In this document: positions 32,873 to 43,907 of the stretch, one piece after another
How the letters are laid out: the number at the start of each line of letters is the position of its first letter
Numbering within the stretch: the stretch's first letter is position 1
Source: Halosolutus amylolyticus
GTDB taxonomy: Archaea; Halobacteriota; Halobacteria; Halobacteriales; Natrialbaceae
Assembly (NCBI RefSeq): GCF_023566055.1
Contig: NZ_JALIQP010000006.1
Location: 1 to 64,000 of the forward strand
Direction of reading: 5' to 3'
Length of the DNA stretch: 64,000 nucleotides
Translations under genes and position numbers: made by a program
Notes under the pieces: model-generated
Told to the model about the DNA's origin: nothing
Database searches by the model: none
What the model saw: only the letters and a program-made list of their open reading frames with translations

Positions 32873-35047
32873 TCAGAACGGAACGTCTTCTTCCGGTTCC
32901 GATCCGTCGTCTGACCCACTCGCCCGCTCGCTCACCCACTCGATCGCGTCGTCGACGTCGGTGGTCGGCGGCGAACACGTCCGATCGCGGCAGACGTACA
33001 GCGTCGGCTCCCCGTCGCGCGCCTCGCGACCGGCCCAGATCGCCGGCGCGTCCGAGAGGCCGAGTCGATCGAGCCACGATTCGAGGCCGTCGTCGGTCGG
33101 CGGCCGCGGGGCGAACAGCCGATCCGGCAGGTACCGCTCGGCGAAGCGATCGTTCCACTCGTCCGGCACCTCGTCGGCGGCGATCGTGATCTCCAGCGCC
33201 CCCGACTCGAGCCGATCGGCGGCGAGACAGAGTGTGGCGTGCTGGAGCGGATCGGATTCCAGTCGGCCGGCGTGGGTCTCGAGCACGCCCGACGCGATCG
33301 ATTCGAAGTCCTCCTCGGCGAACGAATCTAGCGCGAGCAGCGTCTCGACGGCCACGCCCGCGGCCGAGGGCGTCGACTGGTCGCCCAGTTCCTGGGGCCG
33401 GGTGACCAGCGACTCGCCGCTTTCCGGCGTGAAGTACAGCGTCCCGCGATCGGCGTCCCAGAACTCGTCCTCGATCACCCGCGCGAGGTCGAGCGCGAAC
33501 GCGAGGTGGTCGACCTCGCCGGTGACCTCGTAACAGTGCAACGCGCCGCGCGCGATGAACGCGTAGTCCTCGAGGTAGCCGTCGATCGCGACGTCGTCGT
33601 CCTTGAAGCGGCGCGAGAGCCGCATCTCCTCGTCGTCCCAGAGCTGATCGCGGACGAATTCGAGGGCGTCGACGGCCATGGTGGCGTAGTCGTCCTCGCG
33701 GAGTACGAACGCGGCCTCCGCGCAGGTCGAGATCATGAGGCCGTTCCAGCCCGCGAGCACCTTCTCGTCGCGGTTCGGCCGGGGACGGTCCTCTCGCGCC
33801 TCGAAGACGGCCTCCCGCGCGGATTCGAGTCGTTCCGCGACCTCGCTCTCGTCGAGGTCGTGCTCGGACGCGACGGCGTCGATCGACGCCGCGACGTTCG
33901 GCTGGTTCTGCCCCTCGAAATTGCCCGATTCCGAGATGTCGTAGCGCGCACAGAACAGGTCGGCGTCGGTTTCGTCGTCGAGGATCTCGCGGATCTCGTC
34001 GGGCCTCCAGACGTAGAAGGCACCCTCCTCGCGCTCGCCCGCTTCGGTGGGGCTCTGGGCGTCGAGCGTGCTGAAGAAGCCGCCCTCCTCGTGCGTGAGT
34101 TCCCGATCGACGAATTCGAGCGTCTCGCGGGTGACCTCGGCGTAGCGCTCCTCGTCAGTTAGCTGGTAGCCGGCGAGCATCGCCCGCGGGATCTCCGCGT
34201 TGTCGTACAGCATCTTCTCGAAGTGTGGTACCGTCCAGTCCCGATCGACGCAGTAGCGGTGGAACCCGCCGCCGACGTGGTCGTAGAGACCCCCGTCGGC
34301 CATCGCGTCCAGCGTCTCCTCCAGCACCGCGCGGTACTCGTCGCGACCGGTCCGATCGTACGCCCGGGCGAGCACCCGAAGCCGCGCGGGCTGGGGGAAC
34401 TTGGGGCCGCCGGAGCCGAATCCACCGTACTCCCGATCGGCGCTCCGGAGGGCCGCGTCGGCGGCCGTCTCCAGGACCTCGCTCGAGGGCGGCTCCGCTG
34501 CCCCGACCGACTCGGGGGTCTCCTCGAGTCGATCGCGCGCGGCCTCGGTCCACTGGTCGGCCCGGTTCTCCATCTCCGCGCGATCGTCCGGGTCGCTCCA
34601 GGAGTCGCTGATCCGATCGACGAGGTCGAGAAAGCCCGGCTGGCCGCGCTTCGCTTCCTTCGGGAAGTAGGTCCCGACGTAGAACGGCTTCCCTTCGGGG
34701 GTGAGCCACGCCGAGAGGGGCCAGCCGCCGCCACCGGAGACGAGCTGACAGACCGTCATGTAGATCGAGTCGACGTCCGGGCGCTCCTCCCGATCGACCT
34801 TGATCGGGACGAAGTTCTCGTTGAGTACCTCGGCGACGTCCTCGTCGGCAAAGCTCTCCTCCTCCATGACGTGACACCAGTGACACGCCGAGTAGCCGAT
34901 CGAAAGGAAGATCGGGACGTCGTGCTCGCGAGCGGTTTCCAGGGCCTGTTCGTCCCACGGCTGCCAGTTGACGGGGTTGTCCGCGTGCTGGCGCAGGTAC
35001 GGGCTCTCCTCCTCGTCGAGCCGATTGCGCTCGGTGGGCCGGGTCAT
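32873..35047 (-). CDS. thioredoxin-domain protein of the YyaL/SSP411 (DUF255) family
   Basis: A 724-residue protein. The N-terminal DUF255 thioredoxin-like domain begins ESPYLRQHADNPVNWQPW and has the CxxC site in SIGYSACHWCHVM (about residues 49-61), then GGGGWPLSAWLTPEGKPF. The C-terminal ~550 residues form an alpha/alpha-barrel like those of glycosyl-processing enzymes (KMLYDNAEIPRAML, DEKVLAGWNGLMIS). The family is widespread with no settled function; a redox-linked sugar or N-glycan role has been proposed from the fold. The length is normal. Confidence 0.92.
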   Translation of the reverse strand: MTRPTERNRLDEEESPYLRQHADNPVNWQPWDEQALETAREHDVPIFLSIGYSACHWCHVMEEESFADEDVAEVLNENFVPIKVDREERPDVDSIYMTVCQLVSGGGGWPLSAWLTPEGKPFYVGTYFPKEAKRGQPGFLDLVDRISDSWSDPDDRAEMENRADQWTEAARDRLEETPESVGAAEPPSSEVLETAADAALRSADREYGGFGSGGPKFPQPARLRVLARAYDRTGRDEYRAVLEETLDAMADGGLYDHVGGGFHRYCVDRDWTVPHFEKMLYDNAEIPRAMLAGYQLTDEERYAEVTRETLEFVDRELTHEEGGFFSTLDAQSPTEAGEREEGAFYVWRPDEIREILDDETDADLFCARYDISESGNFEGQNQPNVAASIDAVASEHDLDESEVAERLESAREAVFEAREDRPRPNRDEKVLAGWNGLMISTCAEAAFVLREDDYATMAVDALEFVRDQLWDDEEMRLSRRFKDDDVAIDGYLEDYAFIARGALHCYEVTGEVDHLAFALDLARVIEDEFWDADRGTLYFTPESGESLVTRPQELGDQSTPSAAGVAVETLLALDSFAEEDFESIASGVLETHAGRLESDPLQHATLCLAADRLESGALEITIAADEVPDEWNDRFAERYLPDRLFAPRPPTDDGLESWLDRLGLSDAPAIWAGREARDGEPTLYVCRDRTCSPPTTDVDDAIEWVSERASGSDDGSEPEEDVPF

Positions 35048-35221
35048 ACGGACCTCTACGGAGAGCGGCGGGAAAAGACCGGCGCGTGGTCCGTCAGTTG
35101 TCGTGAGCGAAGCCGTGAGCGACGCGGACGGTGCGACACGATCGCACGGATCGCGGACCGAGCGACAAAAAAGACGATGAGACGATGTCGACGGTTTCCG
35201 GCGAACGATCGGGTAACCCGA

Positions 35222-37957
35222 TCAGGCCGCTTCTTCCTGGAGCAGGCGGCGGAGCACGAGGTGCAGGACGCCGCCGTTCTCGACGTACTCGACCGCCGCG
35301 GGCGTGCCGACCTGTGCGGTCACGTCGAACTCCGTTGTCTCGCCGTCCTCGTCCTCGGCGATCACGGTGAGTTCGGCGTTGGGCTCGAGTCCGTCGTCGA
35401 GGCCGCGGATCTCGAAGTACTCGCTCCCGTCGAGGCCGAGTTGCTCCCAGCCGTCGCCGTCCTCGAACTGGAGCGGCAGGACGCCCATGCCGATCAGGTT
35501 GTCCCGGTAGATGCGCTCGTAGCTCTCGGCGATCGTCGCGCGGATGCCGAGCAGGTCGGTGCCCTTGGCCGCCCAGTCGCGGCTGGACCCGGTCCCGAAC
35601 TCCTCGCCGGCCATGACGACCAGCGGGGTGTCCTCGTCGCGGTACCGCTCGCTGGCCTCGAAGACGGTGGTCTCCTCGTCCGTCGGGTGGTGGATGGTGT
35701 AGCCGCCCTCTTTGCCGTCTAACAGCTGGTTCTCGATGCGGACGTTCGCGAAGGTGCCGCGCATCATGACCTCGTGGTTCCCGCGGCGGGAGCCGTACGT
35801 GTTGAACTCGTACGGTTCGACGCCGCGCTCTTTGAGCCACTGCCCGGCGGGCAGGTCCTCGCCGAACGGCCCGGCGGGACTGATGTGGTCGGTCGTGACG
35901 GTGTCACCGAGCGTGAGCAGACAGCGGGCGTCCGCGATGTCCTCCACGCCGGGTTCCTCGAGCGGGAAGTCCTGGAAGAACGGCGGTTCGCGGATGTAGG
36001 TGGACTCGTCGTCCCAGTCGTAGACGTCACCGGTGGGTGCGGCGAGGGCTTCCCAGCGATCGTCGCCCTCGAAGACGCTCGCATACTTCTCCTCGAACAT
36101 CTCGGGGGAGACGCTGTCGTGGATGGTTTCGCGCACCTCCTCCGGGTCCGGCCAGACGTCCTCCAGGTAGACCGGTTCGCCCTCGTCGTTGGTGCCGATC
36201 GGTTCCTCCTCGAGGTCGATGTCCATCCGGCCCGCGAGGCCGTAGGCGACGACCAGCGGCGGGCTTGCGAGGTAGTTCGCGCGGATCTTGGGGTGGATGC
36301 GCGCCTCGAAGTTGCGGTTGCCCGAGAGGACGCTCGTCGTCCACAGGTCGTGTTCGTCGATGGCGGCCTCGATCGGTTCGGGGAGCGGGCCCGCGTTGCC
36401 GATACAGGTGGTACAGCCGTAGCCGACGACGTGGTAGCCCAGTTCCTCCAGGTCGTCGAGCAGGTCTGCCTGCTCTAAGTACTCCGTGACGACCTTGCTG
36501 CCGGGCGCGAGGCTGGTCTTGACGTACTCGGGAACCTCGAGACCCTGCTCGGCGGCGTTACGTGCGAGCAGTCCCGCGGCGACCATCACCGACGGGTTCG
36601 AGGTGTTGGTACAGGAGGTGATCGCGCTGACGAGGACGTCGCCGTGGCCGATCTCGACCTCGGTGCCGTCCTCCAGTTCCACGGGAACCTTCTCGTCGAG
36701 GTCGGGCGAGGTCTCCGTGACCAGTCCGCCGTCGCCGGTGGCGGCCCCGCCGTCGATGACGCCCTCTTCCTCGAGCAGCGTCGGGAAGTGCTCGTCGAGG
36801 TCGCCCATCGGAATACGGGCGTGAGGCTTCTTGTGGCCCGCGAGGCTGGGCTCGACGTCGCCGAGATCGAACTCGACGACCTCGGTGAACTCGGGATCGT
36901 GCTCGCCGAACAGGCCCTGTGCCTCGAGGTACTCGCGAACCAGTTCGATGTGGTCCTCGTCGCGGCCGGTGAGTTCGAGGTAGTCCAGCGTCTTCTCGTC
37001 GACCGGGAACATGCTGATCGTCGATCCCTGTTCGGGCGCCATGTTCGCGATCGTCGCCCGATCGGCGACCGAGAGCTGCGAGACGCCGGGGCCGTAGAAC
37101 TCGACGAACTTGTCGACGACGCCGACCTGGCGGAGTTTCTCGGTGATGTGGAGCACGAGGTCGGTCGCGGTCGCGCCCTCCGGCAGTTCGCCGGTGAGTT
37201 CGACGCCGACGACCTCGGGCAGGGTCATCGTGATCGGCTGGCCGAGCAACGCGGCCTCGGCCTCGATGCCGCCGACCCCCCAGCCGACGACGCCGATGCC
37301 GCCGATCATCGGGGTGTGGCTGTCGGTGCCGACGAGCGTGTCGGGCAGGAGCCACTGCTCGCCGTCCTCCTCGCGTGCGTGGACGACGCGCCCGAGGTGT
37401 TCCAGGTTGACCTGGTGAACGATCCCGGTTCCCGGCGGGACCACGTTGAAGTCCTCGAAGGCCTGTTCGGCCCACTTGATCGCGCGGTAGCGCTCCTCGT
37501 TGCGCTCGTACTCGAGTTCGACGTTCTTCTCGTAGGCGTCCTCGCTCCCGAAGTAGTCGACCTGGACGCTGTGGTCGATCACGAGGTCGCAGGGGACCTC
37601 GGGTTCGACGCTGGTCGGATCGACGCCCTTGCGATCGGCGGCCGAGCGAAGCGCCGCGAGGTCGACGACCGCGGGGACGCCCGTCAGGTCCTGCAGGACG
37701 ACCCGCGAGGGCTGGAACGGGACCTCCGCGTCGGGAACGTCGGGTTCCCACGACGCCGCGTTCCGGACGTCCGCTTCGGTCACTCGTTCGCCGTCCACGT
37801 TCCGGAGCACCGATTCGAGCAGCACTCGAATGCTCACGGGTAGTTTCTCGAGGTCACAGAGCCCCTGTTCCTCGAGAACCGTGAGATCGGCCATCTTGTA
37901 CGTCTCGCCGTCGTGTTCGAACTCCCGGATGGCGTCCGAAACGTCGTCAGTTGCCAT
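35222..37957 (-). CDS. acnA: aconitate hydratase (AcnA/IRP1 type)
   Basis: A 911-residue enzyme that converts citrate to isocitrate in the TCA cycle. The [4Fe-4S] ligands lie in SCTNTSNPSVM and GYGCTTCIGNAGPLPEP. Other active-site segments are GTDSHTPMIGGIGVVGWGVGG and AGEEFGTGSSRDWAAKG in the C-terminal swivel domain. The domain order 1-2-3-linker-4 matches AcnA rather than AcnB. A TATA box (GTGTATAAGG, about 38008-38017 on the minus strand) precedes a leader of about 30 nt. It stands alone. Confidence 0.96.
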   Translation of the reverse strand: MATDDVSDAIREFEHDGETYKMADLTVLEEQGLCDLEKLPVSIRVLLESVLRNVDGERVTEADVRNAASWEPDVPDAEVPFQPSRVVLQDLTGVPAVVDLAALRSAADRKGVDPTSVEPEVPCDLVIDHSVQVDYFGSEDAYEKNVELEYERNEERYRAIKWAEQAFEDFNVVPPGTGIVHQVNLEHLGRVVHAREEDGEQWLLPDTLVGTDSHTPMIGGIGVVGWGVGGIEAEAALLGQPITMTLPEVVGVELTGELPEGATATDLVLHITEKLRQVGVVDKFVEFYGPGVSQLSVADRATIANMAPEQGSTISMFPVDEKTLDYLELTGRDEDHIELVREYLEAQGLFGEHDPEFTEVVEFDLGDVEPSLAGHKKPHARIPMGDLDEHFPTLLEEEGVIDGGAATGDGGLVTETSPDLDEKVPVELEDGTEVEIGHGDVLVSAITSCTNTSNPSVMVAAGLLARNAAEQGLEVPEYVKTSLAPGSKVVTEYLEQADLLDDLEELGYHVVGYGCTTCIGNAGPLPEPIEAAIDEHDLWTTSVLSGNRNFEARIHPKIRANYLASPPLVVAYGLAGRMDIDLEEEPIGTNDEGEPVYLEDVWPDPEEVRETIHDSVSPEMFEEKYASVFEGDDRWEALAAPTGDVYDWDDESTYIREPPFFQDFPLEEPGVEDIADARCLLTLGDTVTTDHISPAGPFGEDLPAGQWLKERGVEPYEFNTYGSRRGNHEVMMRGTFANVRIENQLLDGKEGGYTIHHPTDEETTVFEASERYRDEDTPLVVMAGEEFGTGSSRDWAAKGTDLLGIRATIAESYERIYRDNLIGMGVLPLQFEDGDGWEQLGLDGSEYFEIRGLDDGLEPNAELTVIAEDEDGETTEFDVTAQVGTPAAVEYVENGGVLHLVLRRLLQEEAA

Positions 37958-38220
37958 ACGAGACCTTGTAAGTCACCACATTTGAATCCCCCGAGAATCT
38001 TCTGTAGACTCCTTATACACCCCGTATTTGTCGGAATGTGATGTAGTACCACGGGCGGGGTCGGGAGGATCTCCAAATCGGACGGCACGACGACCGGGAG
38101 TCGCAGTCGATCGCCCGAGACGATCGTCGAACTGCTCGGAGATCGGTTGTCGTGGCTCGGCGTTCGGTTGTGCACAAAAAACGGGAAACGGCCGAAACAG
38201 CGCGAGAACGGAGTGGTCCG

Positions 38221-38853
38221 TCAGTTGCCGCCGCCGTCGTCGCCGCCGTTGCCTGCGCCGCCGTCGCCGCCGTTTCCGCCGCCGTCACCGCCGTTTCCGC
38301 CGCCGTCGCCGCCGTTGCCGCCGTTGCCGTCATCGGCAGCGGCGCCGTTTTCTTCTTCTTCCTCTTCCATGTCGCCGTCTTCTTCGTCGCCGTTGCCGTT
38401 ATCGTCGCCGTTGCCGGTCGCACCGGGGGTAACCTCGATCAGGTCCAGTGCGGAGTCACGGAACTGACCGTCCTCACCCATCGTCGCGCTGTCGCCCATG
38501 CTGAGCGTGCCGTTCTCTTCCAGGACGAAGCCCCACGTCGGGGCGTCCACGCCCAGGTCGTAGCTGATGATGTACGCGTCCCAGTCGTCGGGATCGTCGA
38601 ACACGTCGTCTTCCGACCCGGATTCCGCGATCAGGTCCTCTTTCGTTTGCGTGTTCAGCGCCGAGACGACCGTGAAGTCCTGGCCAGGCAGGTAGTCGTC
38701 ACCGTACACGAGCACCTCGTCGGCGTCTTCCTGGGCGGACGCGGTTCCCGCCGTCGCGCCGGCACCGAGTGCCAGCGCCGTCGTGGCGAGCGCTCCCTTC
38801 TTCATGAACGAGCGTCTCGAGTCGTCGAATAGTCCGCTATTGTCTTCTGTCAT
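38221..38853 (-). CDS. Tat-exported protein, tandem paralog A (Gly/Asp-rich tail)
   Basis: A 210-residue exported protein, the first of three tandem paralogs. DSRRSFMKKGALATTALALG is a twin-arginine signal with an AxA-type cleavage site (TASAQ). The ~95-residue core contains YGDDYLPGQDFTVVSALNTQ, DLIAESGSEDDVFDDPDDWD, YIISYDLGVDAPTWGFVL and GDSATMGEDGQFRDSALDLIEV, patterns shared with paralogs B and C. Unlike them it has a C-terminal extension of ~75 residues: an acidic stretch, then NGGDGGGNGG-type repeats. The family is unrecognised; the acidic residues might bind calcium. It has the shared promoter and 5' hairpin leader. Confidence 0.82.
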   Translation of the reverse strand: MTEDNSGLFDDSRRSFMKKGALATTALALGAGATAGTASAQEDADEVLVYGDDYLPGQDFTVVSALNTQTKEDLIAESGSEDDVFDDPDDWDAYIISYDLGVDAPTWGFVLEENGTLSMGDSATMGEDGQFRDSALDLIEVTPGATGNGDDNGNGDEEDGDMEEEEEENGAAADDGNGGNGGDGGGNGGDGGGNGGDGGAGNGGDDGGGN

Positions 38854-38949
38854 GTCTCTCACCTAAGTCCCCTCTTCGGGGTAGACGTTTCTTGACCCAA
38901 TTTTCGCATAAGTCAGCCCCATTGTTTCACCGTCTAAGACGAACTGAAA
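38854..38949 (-). promoter_or_regulatory. conserved promoter and 5' hairpin leader of paralog A
   Basis: On the minus strand a TATA-like CTTATGCGAA (38905-38914) predicts a start near 38883. The mRNA would open with a CCCC-GAAGA-GGGG hairpin (38869-38881), then AGGTGAGAG as ribosome-binding site just before the ATG. The same layout occurs at 39875-39975 and 40978-41080, and similarity continues ~35 bp above the TATA box. Confidence 0.7.
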
Positions 38950-39448
38950 TCACAAATACGCCCCCTATGGAGCCCATACAGCCGAATATCGATACTTTAC
39001 GTCGTCGCGAGATCCGAATGTCAACAATGGTTGTTTATTGATCGAAACGGGGTTCGGAACGTGCGATTCAGTCCGTTACTGTTCCTGATATGTAGGCCTC
39101 GCGCGAGTGCCGTCCCGGTCATCCCGGTTCGGTCTCGTCGATAGCCGATTGCGGCCCCTGAGTCGGTTTATCGTGTGATTTTGAGGCGATAGGGACGGAG
39201 TACGGAACCCCTCATATAGCAAAACAAATGCTTTCCTCGGACTATCACCAGGAAAGTCAACACCGAAAACCGATCACAGCCCGTGATTATCACCGGTTCT
39301 GACGAGGCCTCGGACCGAATCGCTCGAGCAGTTGCGACCGCCGGCGCGTCGGCGGCGCTCGGGCGCGACGAAGGGACACTCCTGTCGATACGGGCGACCG
39401 TCGCGCAACTGGGGCGTAAAAAAAGCTTCGCCCGGATTCAGTCCGGGA
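38950..39448. other. gene-free spacer between paralogs A and B
   Basis: About 500 bp without a supportable gene. The part from about 39207 to 39448 is visibly related to 40307-40545, the spacer downstream of paralog C: shared blocks include TGCTTTCCTCG, TCGAGCAGT and CGCGCAACTGGG. It is therefore part of a duplicated unit that covers non-coding flank as well as gene. The distal part (38950-39206) is AT-richer and shows nothing I recognise. Confidence 0.55.
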
Positions 39449-39874
39449 TCACAACTCGACCTCGACCAGCCCCAGTCGGGACCGACGGAACGCTCCATTT
39501 TCACCCAACGTCTCGCTATCGCCGGCGCTGAGGTCAGCGTCCTCCGTAAACAGGATCCCCCACGACGGGGCTTCCACGCCCAGATCGAAATTGACGATGA
39601 ACGCGTCCCAGTCGTCGGGGTCGTCGAACACGTCGTCTCCCGCCCCGGAGTCCTCGATCAGGTCCTCGAGCGTTCTCGTTTCCAACTCTGAGACGACGTC
39701 GAAGTCGACGTCGGGCCGGTAGTCCGCTTCGAGCACGATCACGTCCTCGTCGTCCTGGGCGGCGGCGGTCCCTGCCGTCGCGGCTGCGCCGAGCGCGACT
39801 CCCGTCGTTGCGAGCGCCCCCTTTTTTACCACTGAGTGTCTCGCGCCTGGTTGTCCATTGGTTTCTTTTGACAT
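39449..39874 (-). CDS. Tat-type exported protein, tandem paralog B
   Basis: A 141-residue paralog of the genes at 38221 and 40546. The signal ARHSVVKKGALATTGVALG has RH in place of the twin arginines, which should weaken or change Tat recognition; cleavage after TAAAQ is likely. The core keeps YRPDVDFDVVSELETRTLEDL, DSGAGDDVFDDPDDWD, NFDLGVEAPSWGILF and ends GLVEVEL without the long tail of paralog A. The start at 39874 has the AGGTGAGAG ribosome-binding site. No function is known. Confidence 0.78.
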   Translation of the reverse strand: MSKETNGQPGARHSVVKKGALATTGVALGAAATAGTAAAQDDEDVIVLEADYRPDVDFDVVSELETRTLEDLIEDSGAGDDVFDDPDDWDAFIVNFDLGVEAPSWGILFTEDADLSAGDSETLGENGAFRRSRLGLVEVEL

Positions 39875-39975
39875 GTCTCTCACCTGCATCCCCTATTCGG
39901 GGTAGACATTTCTTGACCTAATTTCGCATAAGTGAGCCCCATTGTTTCAGCAACCAAGACGACCTGTACTCGAAG
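39875..39975 (-). promoter_or_regulatory. conserved promoter and 5' hairpin leader of paralog B
   Basis: Same organisation as for paralog A: TATA-like CTTATGCGAA on the minus strand (about 39925-39935), a CCCC-GAATA-GGGG hairpin at 39890-39902 at the predicted mRNA 5' end, and an AGGTGAGAG ribosome-binding site. The loop differs from paralog A by one base while both stem arms are unchanged. Confidence 0.68.
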
Positions 39976-39986
39976 AACCACCCTAT

Positions 39987-40069
39987 TATAGTGACCACTA
40001 ACAGCGTTTCCACATCGATCGCACGAGGTCTGTACGATCGAGTGTGCACTGACTTTCAGTGGCTACTAC
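39987..40069 (-). mobile_element. MITE-like hairpin element, diverged copy 3 (inverted)
   Basis: Read on the minus strand it matches the copies at 24055 and 49750, with its best-kept end GTAGTAGCCACTGAAAGTCA (minus strand, near 40045-40066) followed by GTGCACACTCGATCG. The opposite end is more decayed, so the terminal repeats are no longer perfect. It lies directly upstream of the paralog B promoter. Confidence 0.65.
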
Positions 40070-40545
40070 AGGGCCCGGATGGCACGTGTTCGCCGATCGA
40101 CAACCCGACGATCGCTGACCGATGCCGAGGACCGCGTATCGATCGGAATACCCCTCAGATAGTGCTCTGCACCCGTTGAACGAGTTTGTCAGCGGGGGTC
40201 GTATCGGTGAGGCGTTCCGACGACGCTGGAGAGGGCGCGATTCCGGCGGAGTGCTGGCCCACGGGGATGTATTGCCCCGGCAACGACGCGGTTAGAACCT
40301 CCAGAAAGTGAAACACCTGCTTTCCTCGATCGTTCTCTCGGGAACTCGACGCGGGAAACGTATCACGTCCCGTGATCGTTCCCAGTCTCGGACGGCGGTC
40401 CTCTGCGGACCCGTTCGAGCAGTCGCGATCGTCGACACATCGGGCGTCGGTCGGGACAGCGCGAAGGGAGCAGTACTGTCGGTACGGGCAATTGTCGCGC
40501 AACTGGGACGTGAAAAGAAAAACTCCGATCGGGTTCAGTTCGGGG
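40070..40545. other. gene-free spacer between paralogs B and C
   Basis: About 475 bp. The segment 40307-40545 mirrors 39207-39448 downstream of paralog B and so belongs to the duplicated unit. The remainder, next to the decayed MITE, shows no gene, RNA or clear promoter. Confidence 0.5.
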
Positions 40546-40977
40546 TCACAGTTCGACCTCGATCACGTTCAGTTGGGCGTCACGGAAATCTCCGTCGTCG
40601 CCCATCGTCTCGCTGTCGCCAGGATCGAGGTCGACGTCCTCGGTAAACAGAACGCCCCACATCGGGGCGTCCCCGTCGTTGTCGGAACTGATGACGTACG
40701 CGTCCCAGTCGTCGGGATCGTCGAAGAGGTCGCCACCGGCGTCGTCGATCAGATCTTCTTTCGTTGCGGTCTCCAGCGACGAGATGACCTCGAAGCCGAC
40801 GTCGGGCCGATAGTCGTCTCCTAACACGACTACCAGGTCATCATCGTCATCGTCGTCCTGGGCAGCGGCGGTCGCCGCCGTCGCGCCTGCGCCGAGAGCG
40901 ATTCCCGTCGCAGCGAGCGTTTCTTTCGTTCCGATCGAGCGACTCGCGTCCGATTGCCCGTTGGTTTCTTTTGACAT
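40546..40977 (-). CDS. exported protein, tandem paralog C with altered signal
   Basis: A 143-residue paralog of the two preceding genes. Its N-terminus reads ASRSIGTKETLAATGIALG, with the twin arginines lost, so Tat export is doubtful although the hydrophobic stretch and TAAAQ site remain. The core is well kept: GDDYRPDVGFEVISSLETA, DDAGGDLFDDPDDWDAYVIS, then GVLFTEDVDLDPGDSETMGDDGDF and NVIEVEL. It is closer to B than to A. It may be a decaying or re-targeted copy. The start at 40977 has the shared ribosome-binding site. Confidence 0.75.
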   Translation of the reverse strand: MSKETNGQSDASRSIGTKETLAATGIALGAGATAATAAAQDDDDDDDLVVVLGDDYRPDVGFEVISSLETATKEDLIDDAGGDLFDDPDDWDAYVISSDNDGDAPMWGVLFTEDVDLDPGDSETMGDDGDFRDAQLNVIEVEL

Positions 40978-41080
40978 GTCTCTCACCTGTACCCCCTCTT
41001 CGGGGTGGACGTTCCTTACTGCAATTTCGTATAAGTCGGCCCGATCGTTTCACCGACCAAGACGAACTGTACCCGAAGAA
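40978..41080 (-). promoter_or_regulatory. conserved promoter and 5' hairpin leader of paralog C
   Basis: The TATA-like CTTATACGAA on the minus strand (about 41027-41037), the CCCC-GAAGA-GGGG hairpin at 40993-41005 and the AGGTGAGAG ribosome-binding site repeat the layout of paralogs A and B. Beyond it, 41081-41362 holds nothing I can assign. Confidence 0.68.
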
Positions 41081-41362
41081 CGCCCCATTAGGACCCCGGC
41101 CGCACGGGTTCTGGCGTCGTCGATTCGCCGATCGATCGGGAACGAACGGAACTCGCTCGACGCCGGCCACGATCGGGGACGGTCGCAGTCGGGTTCCGTC
41201 GGCACGGGCGCCACGAAAACGAGTGATTGTGTGGTCGGAGACTGGTCACGACACCGGCCCGCTGACGGTGTGGACGTCTAGCGATCGGTTCGCGATACCA
41301 CCGCCGATCCCGGATCTGGGACGAGATCGACCCGGATCGGCGGCCGACACCGATCGAAGCGG

Positions 41363-41914
41363 TCACTCGCGACGGACGTACTCGACGAACGCGAACCCGT
41401 CGTGGTCGTCGCGCGTGACCTCCCGAAACGACTCCGGGTCCCACTCCGGGAATCGCGTGTCGCCGTCGGGCGCGTCGTGAACCTCGGTGACGATCAGCCG
41501 ATCGATCGCGGGCAGGAACTGCTCGTACACCGACGCGCCGCCGGCGACGAACGCCCGATCGGTGCCGTCGTGGCGCTCGCGGGCCGCGGTTTCGGCCGCC
41601 TCGATCGCGCTCTCGAGGTCGGACGCCACGACGGCGTTCTCGGGCGTTTCGAGGTCCCGACTCGTCAGGACGATCGTCGTCCGGCCGGGGAGCGGTTCGC
41701 CGAGGGCCTCGACGATCCCCTCGTAGGTGACCCGCCCCATGATGACGGGATGGTCCATCGTCGTCTCCTTGAAGTGCTCGAGATCCGCGGGGATGTGCCA
41801 CGGCATCTCGCCGTCCCTGCCAATGACGCCGTTTGCCGCGACGGCGGCGATCGCGACGAGTTCGAGGTCGGTCTCGCGAACGGCCGCCGGGAGGGACTCG
41901 CGAGAGGCCGTCAT
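41363..41914 (-). CDS. hdrA: dihydrofolate reductase
   Basis: A 183-residue enzyme that reduces dihydrofolate with NADPH. AIAAVAANGVIGRDGEMPWHIP is the N-terminal substrate loop, and DLEHFKETTMDHPVIMGRVTYEGI the next conserved block. TIVLTSR and VAGGASVYEQFLP complete the fold. It overlaps the thymidylate synthase gene by 4 nt (ATGA), so it is translated with it and regenerates the folate that ThyA oxidises. The symbol follows haloarchaeal use (hdrA); hdrB-type paralogs exist in some species. Confidence 0.93.
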   Translation of the reverse strand: MTASRESLPAAVRETDLELVAIAAVAANGVIGRDGEMPWHIPADLEHFKETTMDHPVIMGRVTYEGIVEALGEPLPGRTTIVLTSRDLETPENAVVASDLESAIEAAETAARERHDGTDRAFVAGGASVYEQFLPAIDRLIVTEVHDAPDGDTRFPEWDPESFREVTRDDHDGFAFVEYVRRE

Positions 41915-42927
41915 TCGGCCACCGAGAACGCGATCCCCTCGTGGGAGTCGTACTCGCGCAACTGGACGTCCTCGTAGCTGAGGTCGTCGATCGACGTCGC
42001 CGCGAGGTCGAGGGTCGGTCGATCGAGCGGTTCCCGCGACAGCTGTTCGAGCAGACCGGGGACGTGATCGAGGCGCTCGTCGCCCTCGGCCTCCGGCGGC
42101 GCTTCGGACTCGAGCCACCCCTTGACGTCCAGGTACTCCTCGCGATCGTCGACGTCGGCGAGTCGGGACTGGAGTTCGTCGAGGTGCTCGCCGTACCACT
42201 CGCCCCGATCGCCACGACCGCAGTAGACATGGGCGTCGACGACGGTGTGTGCGAAGGTTCCGGGCTCGTAGCCGGTCTGCTGGGCGACGACGTTCGTCAG
42301 GAGCGCGTAGGCGGCGATGTTGAACGGGATTCCCAGCGCCGTATCGCCGGACCGCTGCGTGAGGTGGCAGTTCAGCCGATCGCCCTGAACGTTGAAGACG
42401 AACGAGTAGTGACAGGGCGGAAGCGTCGAGACGGCCGCGTTGGCGGGGTGCCACGCGTTCACGACGAGCCGTCGCGAGTTCGGACTGTCCGAGAGCGTGT
42501 CGATCACGTACTGTAACTGGTCGAACGTGCGGCGGCCGTCGTCCTCGACGGTGACCCACCGGTGGGCGTCGTCCGGCCAGGACTCGCCGTCGAGTTGCGC
42601 GTCGTCCTCCGGAACCGGGTACCGCCGCCAGAAGCGGCCGTAGGCGGTGTCGAGCCGCCCCTCCTCGTCGGCCCACGCGTCCCAGATCTTCGTCTTCTCG
42701 CGGAGATCGCGGATGTGTTCCTCGCCGGAGAGATACCAGCAGACCTCGTGAAGCATCGAGTTCCACCGGTAGCCGTCCATCTCCTTCGTCGTGAGCAGGG
42801 GATACCCCTTCCCGAGGTTAACCTCGTAGTGCTCGCTGAACGAGGCAATCGTGTCGACGCCGGTCCGGTTGGGCTTGTAGGTGCCCCCGGAGAGTACCGA
42901 ATCGACGAGATCGAGGTACTGGTGCAT
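41911..42927 (-). CDS. thyA: thymidylate synthase
   Basis: A 338-residue ThyA-type enzyme that methylates dUMP with methylene-tetrahydrofolate. It opens YLDLVDSVLSGGTYKPNRTG, followed by the LTTKEM block. The catalytic cysteine is in ALPPCH-equivalent STLPPCHYSFVF, and RSGDTALGIPFNIAAYALL is the dUMP-binding segment. A ~60-residue acidic insertion (DVDDREEYLDVKGWLESEAP) precedes the C-terminus. DHFR follows with a 4-nt overlap, making a thymidine-synthesis operon. An 88-bp palindromic element lies 85 nt upstream but belongs to the neighbouring vapC end. Confidence 0.95.
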   Translation of the reverse strand: MHQYLDLVDSVLSGGTYKPNRTGVDTIASFSEHYEVNLGKGYPLLTTKEMDGYRWNSMLHEVCWYLSGEEHIRDLREKTKIWDAWADEEGRLDTAYGRFWRRYPVPEDDAQLDGESWPDDAHRWVTVEDDGRRTFDQLQYVIDTLSDSPNSRRLVVNAWHPANAAVSTLPPCHYSFVFNVQGDRLNCHLTQRSGDTALGIPFNIAAYALLTNVVAQQTGYEPGTFAHTVVDAHVYCGRGDRGEWYGEHLDELQSRLADVDDREEYLDVKGWLESEAPPEAEGDERLDHVPGLLEQLSREPLDRPTLDLAATSIDDLSYEDVQLREYDSHEGIAFSVAE

Positions 42928-43012: not shown

Positions 43013-43100
43013 CTCATACGGTTTACTGTACGTCATTTCCGGCGCAACCGCGATCCGGGCGGCGGTTGCGCCGGTAAATCGTTACAGCGATCCGTATCAG
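43013..43100 (-). repeat. 88-bp palindromic element, copy 2, at the vapC stop codon
   Basis: Read on the minus strand it matches 83 of 88 bases of the element at 23922-24009, including the identical 13-bp core arms and loop. It again begins CTGAT, with TGA as the stop codon of the upstream gene, here vapC. The orientation relative to the host gene is therefore the same in both cases. Confidence 0.85.
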
Positions 43101-43489
43101 TACGATTCGATATCGATCTCGTCGATTCGTTCGAAGTGTTCGACGTTTCTCGTGAGGACCGATTCCTCGTGGACGAGCGCCGTCGCACCGATGATCGTAT
43201 CACCGATCCCGATCGCCTGTCCTTCCGCAGCCAGGCGGCCATCGATTCGTCCGGCTTTCTTCATCACTGCGCCGTCGGCAGGATACGTCGGCTTCGTTTC
43301 GAGGACGGCTTCGATGTGTCGCCGCCGCTCGCTCGGCGTCTCCACTCGTTCGAGGCTGTGATAGAGTTCGAACTGGGAGACGGCCGACACCCGAAGCGGG
43401 ACGTGTTGCTCTTCGAGGGCAGCGATCTTTCGCTTCGCTCGATCGGAATCCTGCATCAGGTCGATAAGAACGTCCGTATCGACGATCAC
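43097..43489 (-). CDS. vapC: VapC-type PIN-domain ribonuclease toxin
   Basis: A 130-residue PIN-domain protein. Acidic active-site positions are visible: Asp in IVDTDVLIDL (residues 4-9), Glu41 in SQFELYHSL and Asp97 in GIGDTIIGATAL, followed by the late VLTRNVEHFERI. VapC toxins cut tRNA, rRNA or mRNA. The GTG start overlaps the antitoxin stop (GTGA), and this coupled start is preferred over longer in-frame extensions rich in arginine. The stop codon forms the edge of an 88-bp palindromic element. Confidence 0.9.
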   Translation of the reverse strand: MIVDTDVLIDLMQDSDRAKRKIAALEEQHVPLRVSAVSQFELYHSLERVETPSERRRHIEAVLETKPTYPADGAVMKKAGRIDGRLAAEGQAIGIGDTIIGATALVHEESVLTRNVEHFERIDEIDIESY

Positions 43490-43731
43490 GAGTCCATTCG
43501 GTCGACGCGTCGGTCGAGTTCGTCTCGCGATCGATCGTTCCGCTCGCGAATCGCTTCGCGCAACTCCTCGGCTTCGGCATCGGAGAGGAGTCCCGCGAGA
43601 TCGAGCAGTGACCGCTCGCCGGCGATTCGCTCGACGGTGTCGGAGAACGACTCTCCAGCCTGTTTGCGGCTTTTGAGCCGCTGGTACGCGTCCTCGGTAA
43701 GCCGAACGTTTCGGTACTCGGTATCGCCCAT
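43486..43731 (-). CDS. vapB: VapB-type antitoxin
   Basis: An 81-residue antitoxin. The N-terminal EYRNVRLTEDAYQRLKSRKQ is a ribbon-helix-helix-like DNA-binding segment, then GESFSDTVERIAGERSLLDL, and a charged C-terminal helix for toxin binding. It overlaps vapC by 4 nt. ATG 43731 lies inside a perfect 18-bp palindrome and about 26 nt after a TATA box, so the mRNA should be leaderless and self-repressed. Confidence 0.87.
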   Translation of the reverse strand: MGDTEYRNVRLTEDAYQRLKSRKQAGESFSDTVERIAGERSLLDLAGLLSDAEAEELREAIRERNDRSRDELDRRVDRMDS

Positions 43732-43762
43732 GCACACATATGTGTGCAGACTTCGCTTAAGT
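43731..43762 (-). promoter_or_regulatory. vapBC promoter with a perfect 18-bp palindromic operator
   Basis: TGCACACATATGTGTGCA (43731-43748) is a perfect palindrome whose proximal end includes the A of the vapB ATG. The TATA-like CACTTAAGCG lies at about 43752-43761 on the minus strand. A VapB dimer bound here would block transcription start. purD is divergent from about 43908. Confidence 0.75.
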
Positions 43763-43907
43763 GTTGGGGCGGACGTCACAAGCCGGCTCTCTCCGAACGG
43801 TGTGCCGAGCCGCCATCGTCGTATGCGATCGGTTTCTCCCACGATCGTGTATATTTCCGCTGTCGGAAAGAGCAACGCTTACAGGTTCGTGCGTTCCGAT
43901 GTCGACC

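Follow-up and report, generated by a model that had tools for sequence, protein, structure and literature searches.

A conserved promoter and predicted 5'-terminal hairpin leader precede the genes of an uncharacterised haloarchaeal protein family

The window analysed here comprises the first 64,000 nucleotides of contig NZ_JALIQP010000006.1 of Halosolutus amylolyticus. Three paralogous genes lie in a head-to-tail tandem on its minus strand, in the order 3, 2, 1, and are flanked by folA/thyA and acnA. The genes and associated features are as follows.

38221-38853, minus strand: paralog 1, 210 aa, with a Tat signal (SRRSFMKK; TIGR01409 above cut-off), a cleavage-like ASAQ, the core domain and a 67-residue acidic/Gly-rich tail
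38224-38424, minus strand: C-terminal tail of paralog 1, 45% G and 30% D+E, lacking K/R and consisting nearly entirely of G, D, E and N
39449-39874, minus strand: paralog 2, 141 aa, core domain with a signal-like N-terminus without RR (ARHSVVKK), tail absent
40546-40977, minus strand: paralog 3, 143 aa, core domain with a signal-like N-terminus without RR (ASRSIGTKE), tail absent
39418-39446, minus strand: inverted repeat CCCGGACTGAATCCGGG followed by a T run, 3' of paralog 2 (by eye; absent from the terminator-scan listing)

As originally predicted, the three tandem proteins share a core, an acidic domain of ~95 residues in which the motif FDDPDDWDA is invariant; the identities of paralogs 2 and 3 to paralog 1 are 59% and 56%, respectively. 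A search of the whole genome (4.59 Mb) found no further copy of the family in its remainder. The CCCGGACTGAATCCGGG repeat with its T run is likely a terminator, which suggests that the genes are transcribed separately. Paralogs 2 and 3 also resemble each other in their 3' flanks (39449-39340 and 40546-40440, minus strand), which are 77% identical across 110 nt (GTTGCGCGAC...); by this similarity the flanks read as the leftover of a duplicated unit that included the 3' end. Two adjacent ORFs on the minus strand at 43097-43875 of the window resemble, by eye, a VapB-like antitoxin and a PIN-domain VapC-like toxin.

The original prediction regarded all three proteins as exported and the product as secreted. 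This description is well supported for paralog 1, whose N-terminus scored 17.2 bits against the TIGR01409 profile of NCBIfam (cut-off 16.7), and is not supported for paralogs 2 and 3, in which NCBIfam found no Tat profile match and the twin-arginine is absent. The latter two retain a signal-like stretch and an AxA site. Judged by these motifs, a clear export signal is present in paralog 1 only, and paralogs 2 and 3 appear to have lost the twin-arginine. RR is intact in the ortholog of paralog 2 from the same genus (ARRSVSKG), and the loss in paralog 2 may therefore be recent. The tail of paralog 1 is likely disordered, given its composition.

The same division was observed across the family. 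With a tail defined as 20 or more residues and with corrected labels, 44 members have RR and a tail, 9 RR without a tail, 8 a tail without RR, and 32 neither. Intact RR is thus associated with an acidic or Gly-rich tail (44 of 53 RR members are tailed and 32 of 40 non-RR members are tail-less; Fisher p ~1e-9, ignoring kinship). On a tree built from few columns, where the labels of L005_1498 and L019_1360 were set too strictly, the "no RR" label must have changed at least 7 times and the "no signal" label at least 4 times given the starred branches, suggesting that export signals were probably lost several times in the family. Among the tail-less copies, RR or the entire signal would have disappeared repeatedly, leaving the family with an exported form and with cytosolic ones, where loss of export is read from loss of the motif. 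At several loci (L017:1040-1369, L020:1043-1366, L022:1046-1378, L078:1953-2282 and similar), a copy that consists of the core and has no signal starts at the stop of a tailed Tat gene, and in some genera the final tail codons, GGA GGT GAC TGA, double as an SD for the downstream signal-less copy. From this arrangement, the exported and cytosolic forms look translationally coupled at those loci.

The view that the core belongs to no recognised family was upheld by the searches. The core domain gave no Pfam or NCBIfam match above curated cut-offs, and the SH3-like hints from Pfam were all below cut-off (SH3_3 with a best E of 0.0012 in 2 of 20 members; SH3_16 with 12.2 bits against 25.8). A family-profile search of the sequences of solved structures returned nothing below E 0.14, and the PHROGs search gave E above 0.01 only. 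No relatives were found in the viral contigs and phages searched, and hence no viral origin is suggested. The predicted structure of the core, taken from two AlphaFold models of different subfamilies (pLDDT 85 and 89), is a small beta-barrel with one helix and without a convincing match. Foldseek (model 1 against PDB and BFVD, model 2 against PDB) gave no E below 0.001, the best being no better than 0.5, and the best matches by VIA (Z 4.7-4.9) were for the most part nucleic-acid-binding and ribosomal proteins of OB-like or SH3-like type. At these values (Z at most 4.9, Foldseek E of 0.5 or more), the weak matches were taken as a common arrangement only. The models thus resemble OB-fold and SH3-like small beta-barrels in being small barrels with a helix, but differ from them in these scores and in the absence of an above-cut-off sequence match. 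The most likely role of the protein is that of a small module for binding, which would act outside the cell in its tailed, Tat-exported form and inside it in its tail-less form.

The core was also sought in other haloarchaea. Of the 292 genomes sampled from the class, 48 have members, and all 48 belong to two families, Natrialbaceae and Haladaptataceae (assigned via named loci). Many genomes carry the exported form only, and many pair exported and non-exported forms. The locus is syntenic in many Natrialbaceae, where thyA and folA are followed by one to several copies and by acnA or a thioredoxin-domain protein. The order thyA, folA, one to three family genes, acnA and/or a thioredoxin-domain protein was observed in the window (32873-42927) and at L034, L035, L036, L040 and L086.

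Each of the three genes is preceded by the same set of elements, all located on the minus strand.

38902-38929, minus strand: promoter block TGAAACAATGGGGCTGACTTATGCGAAA, paralog 1 (genome pattern search)
38869-38881, minus strand: predicted 5'-terminal hairpin CCCC-GAAGA-GGGG, paralog 1 (pattern search, folding; conserved across genera)
38856-38864, minus strand: SD-like AGGTGAGAG, 2 nt before the ATG of paralog 1 (sequence, pattern search)
39922-39949, minus strand: promoter block TGAAACAATGGGGCTCACTTATGCGAAA, paralog 2 (genome pattern search)
39890-39902, minus strand: predicted 5'-terminal hairpin CCCC-GAATA-GGGG, paralog 2 (pattern search, folding)
39877-39885, minus strand: SD-like AGGTGAGAG, paralog 2 (sequence, pattern search)
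41025-41052, minus strand: promoter block TGAAACGATCGGGCCGACTTATACGAAA, paralog 3 (genome pattern search)
40991-41006, minus strand: predicted 5'-terminal hairpin ACCCC-GAAGAG-GGGGT, paralog 3 (pattern search, folding)
40980-40988, minus strand: SD-like AGGTGAGAG, paralog 3 (sequence, pattern search)

The TATA position, CCCC/GGGG hairpin and SD that the three genes had been said to share were found before all of them, in the order TGAAAC-A/G-AT-C/G-G, CTTAT, ~30 nt, CCCC-loop-GGGG hairpin, SD and ATG. The promoter consists of GAAACGATCG, the TATA-like CTTAT (38908-38912, 39928-39932 and 41031-41035 for paralogs 1, 2 and 3, respectively) and a CAAG-containing stretch reaching the predicted start site; its upstream block is a single conserved GAAAC[AG][AG]T[CG]G stretch ~16 nt before CTTAT. 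The promoter pattern has exactly three matches in the genome, each before one of the three paralogs, and the same holds for the pattern of hairpin plus SD. Among 61 related genomes, 11 of the 14 exact promoter matches are at family genes, and 3 are elsewhere, versus 1 for the reversed control. With these counts, and with no additional site in the 4.59-Mb genome even at 3 mismatches, the idea that the promoter serves a wider regulon was dropped.

The TATA centre of haloarchaeal promoters lies ~27 nt before the transcription start, so that transcription would begin at the stem or immediately ahead of it. The earlier predicted transcript ends (38883, 39904 and 41007) are 1-2 nt before the hairpin and fit a start ~30 nt past CTTAT. 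For many haloarchaeal genes, the mRNA is believed to lack a leader. That most genes of the window are leaderless, as the original prediction had assumed, was not firmly borne out by rough gene calls: 10 of 38 starts are leaderless-like, 9 are SD-like (three of them the paralogs) and 19 are neither. The three hairpins of the window have folding energies of -7.6 to -9.4 kcal/mol (z -1.4 to -1.9), and a single one is unremarkable; the significance derives from conservation. In the window leaders the SD lies outside the stem, and SD masking is therefore not direct there. An Rfam search gave no match to the leader at the gathering score and one chance match elsewhere.

A comparison of the leaders with the surrounding DNA, on which the original prediction had been made to depend, came out in its favour. 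The promoter and leader (-85 to -1) are 82-86% identical among the three copies, the adjoining upstream 85 nt 65-69% and the DNA beyond 12-62%, relative to a baseline of 49 ± 13% (maximum 72%) for random 85-mers. The drop from 82-86% to 65-69% indicates that the likeness of the leaders is more than an even similarity left by duplication.

For comparison across genera, the start and the upstream DNA were extracted for members collected in whole genomes and named contigs. Relatives from at least 16 genera (genus groups), mostly Natrialbaceae, carry the promoter-hairpin-SD arrangement in front of the gene, single-copy relatives included. The distance from TATA to the inner stem is 33.8 ± 0.65 nt (range 32-35, n=56), and that from the stem to ATG is 24.3 ± 2.65 nt (range 18-28); the position of the stem is set relative to the TATA element, not the start codon. 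The three inner G-C pairs are invariant, and the outer three vary as CG, GC, UA, AU, GU and UG. The covariation score of the stem was 0.213, compared with 0.089 ± 0.018 for shuffled and 0.025-0.162 for slid alignments, where the alignment was fitted to the hairpin (arms picked by pairing) and relatedness inflates the shuffle test. Loop length ranges from 3 to 7 nt. The stems are only 4-8 bp and singly within chance (median shuffle p 0.17). In leaders L018, L020 and L022, stems of 6-8 bp abut or overlap the SD. A clear hairpin is absent from the Haladaptatus copies and some others (L011, L013, L015 and L026).

Within this genome, the promoter-hairpin module occurs with the family only; it is conserved and positioned by TATA, and its stem covaries. 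The suggestion that a hairpin leader present in three copies has been kept on purpose is thereby strongly supported: it is family-private in the genome, occurs in at least 16 genera, is locked to TATA and has covarying outer pairs. We lean slightly towards the interpretation that the family travels with its own expression module and that the hairpin acts in RNA. The private promoter would give an mRNA whose first nucleotides fold into a short hairpin, followed by the SD and the start codon. The hairpin would most likely block attack on the 5' end of the transcript, set the reading of the nearby SD, or both, and the resulting output would be high but adjustable. The tailed RR copy would be exported folded by Tat, cut after AxA, and act extracellularly as a binding module, a small acidic beta-barrel carrying a flexible tail. 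The copies without RR and tail would stay in the cytosol, doing a matching job.

The strongest competitor, which we consider possible and clearly less probable, is that the inverted repeat at +1 serves as an operator in the DNA: a dedicated regulator would bind the CCCC/GGGG palindrome, the promoter blocks or both, and folding of the RNA would be incidental. The promoter blocks upstream of and around TATA are conserved along with the repeat, the inner CCC/GGG bases are invariant, and the repeat stands at a fixed distance from TATA, as expected of an operator; archaeal repressors commonly bind at or downstream of TATA (PMC6085418). However, a loop of 3-7 nt shifts the spacing of the half-sites and the outer pairs are compensatory, features that suit a hairpin better than a fixed protein site and thus favour an RNA hairpin over a DNA operator. 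Moreover, the block stands before no other gene in the genome and a regulon is not seen. It is improbable, as a combined scheme, that the module was co-inherited with the family across many genera, that the family split repeatedly into exported-tailed and cytosolic forms, and that the cytosolic small-barrel paralogs sense or regulate the shared leader or promoter by autoregulation. More doubtful still is a halocin-like system in which the exported tailed Tat effector hits competitors and the RR-less cytosolic paralogs give immunity-like protection to the producer: many genomes do pair an exported with a non-exported form, in some cases with apparent translational coupling, but many genomes carry only the exported form, there is no curated-family match, and the locus is syntenic between thyA/folA and acnA, not mobile. 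That the shared leaders merely reflect recent tandem duplication without a conserved role is very unlikely and already contradicted: paralogs 2 and 3 do share their 3' flank and the units did duplicate, yet the order of elements recurs in 16 genera and before single-copy relatives, and the stem covaries. From its conservation across genera, near-fixed TATA distance and stem covariation, the predicted structure is best described as a hairpin leader conserved at the 5' terminus rather than as a remnant left by recent duplication.

Translation of the hp transcript of Haloferax volcanii is set by a 5'-UTR stem-loop and changes in the opposite direction when the stem-loop is made stronger or weaker (Brenneis and Soppa 2009, PMC2636863). 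A 5'-UTR stem-loop is likewise predicted in all three leaders of the window, conserved and covarying. Both have one short leader stem-loop of similar energy (-7.4 kcal/mol for hp), and no sequence or gene relationship is claimed; unlike that of hp, the stem-loop of the family leader sits at the predicted end of the transcript, is specific to the family and has been conserved between genera, whereas function is shown for hp only. UTR structures in haloarchaea may also stabilise mRNA (PMC4390858). The promoter resembles gvp promoters with the GvpE activating sequence in having a conserved element upstream of TATA, one gene set and a short 5'-UTR, but the GvpE element spans 20 nt, comprises two 8-nt parts and adjoins the BRE (PMC4390858), while the block here starts ~16 nt before CTTAT. 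Paralog 1 is like Tat-exported haloarchaeal proteins in its RR signal, low-hydrophobicity stretch and AxA site, in contrast to paralogs 2 and 3 and most tail-less relatives, which lack RR or the whole signal.

To our knowledge, cis-acting RNA elements of archaeal mRNAs are little catalogued. A search of the published literature found no description of the protein family or its leader. The family is uncharacterised, and its conserved leader adds to a known type of regulation rather than defining a new type. The hairpin series across at least 16 genera provides natural compensatory variants for testing whether archaeal 5'-end hairpins protect or tune mRNAs, and the exported/cytosolic split offers an example of duplicated genes that have probably lost Tat export repeatedly. 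The largest array seen, at L085 (G018), has four tandem copies, each with a promoter-hairpin leader, at ~2415, 3488, 4846 and 5586.
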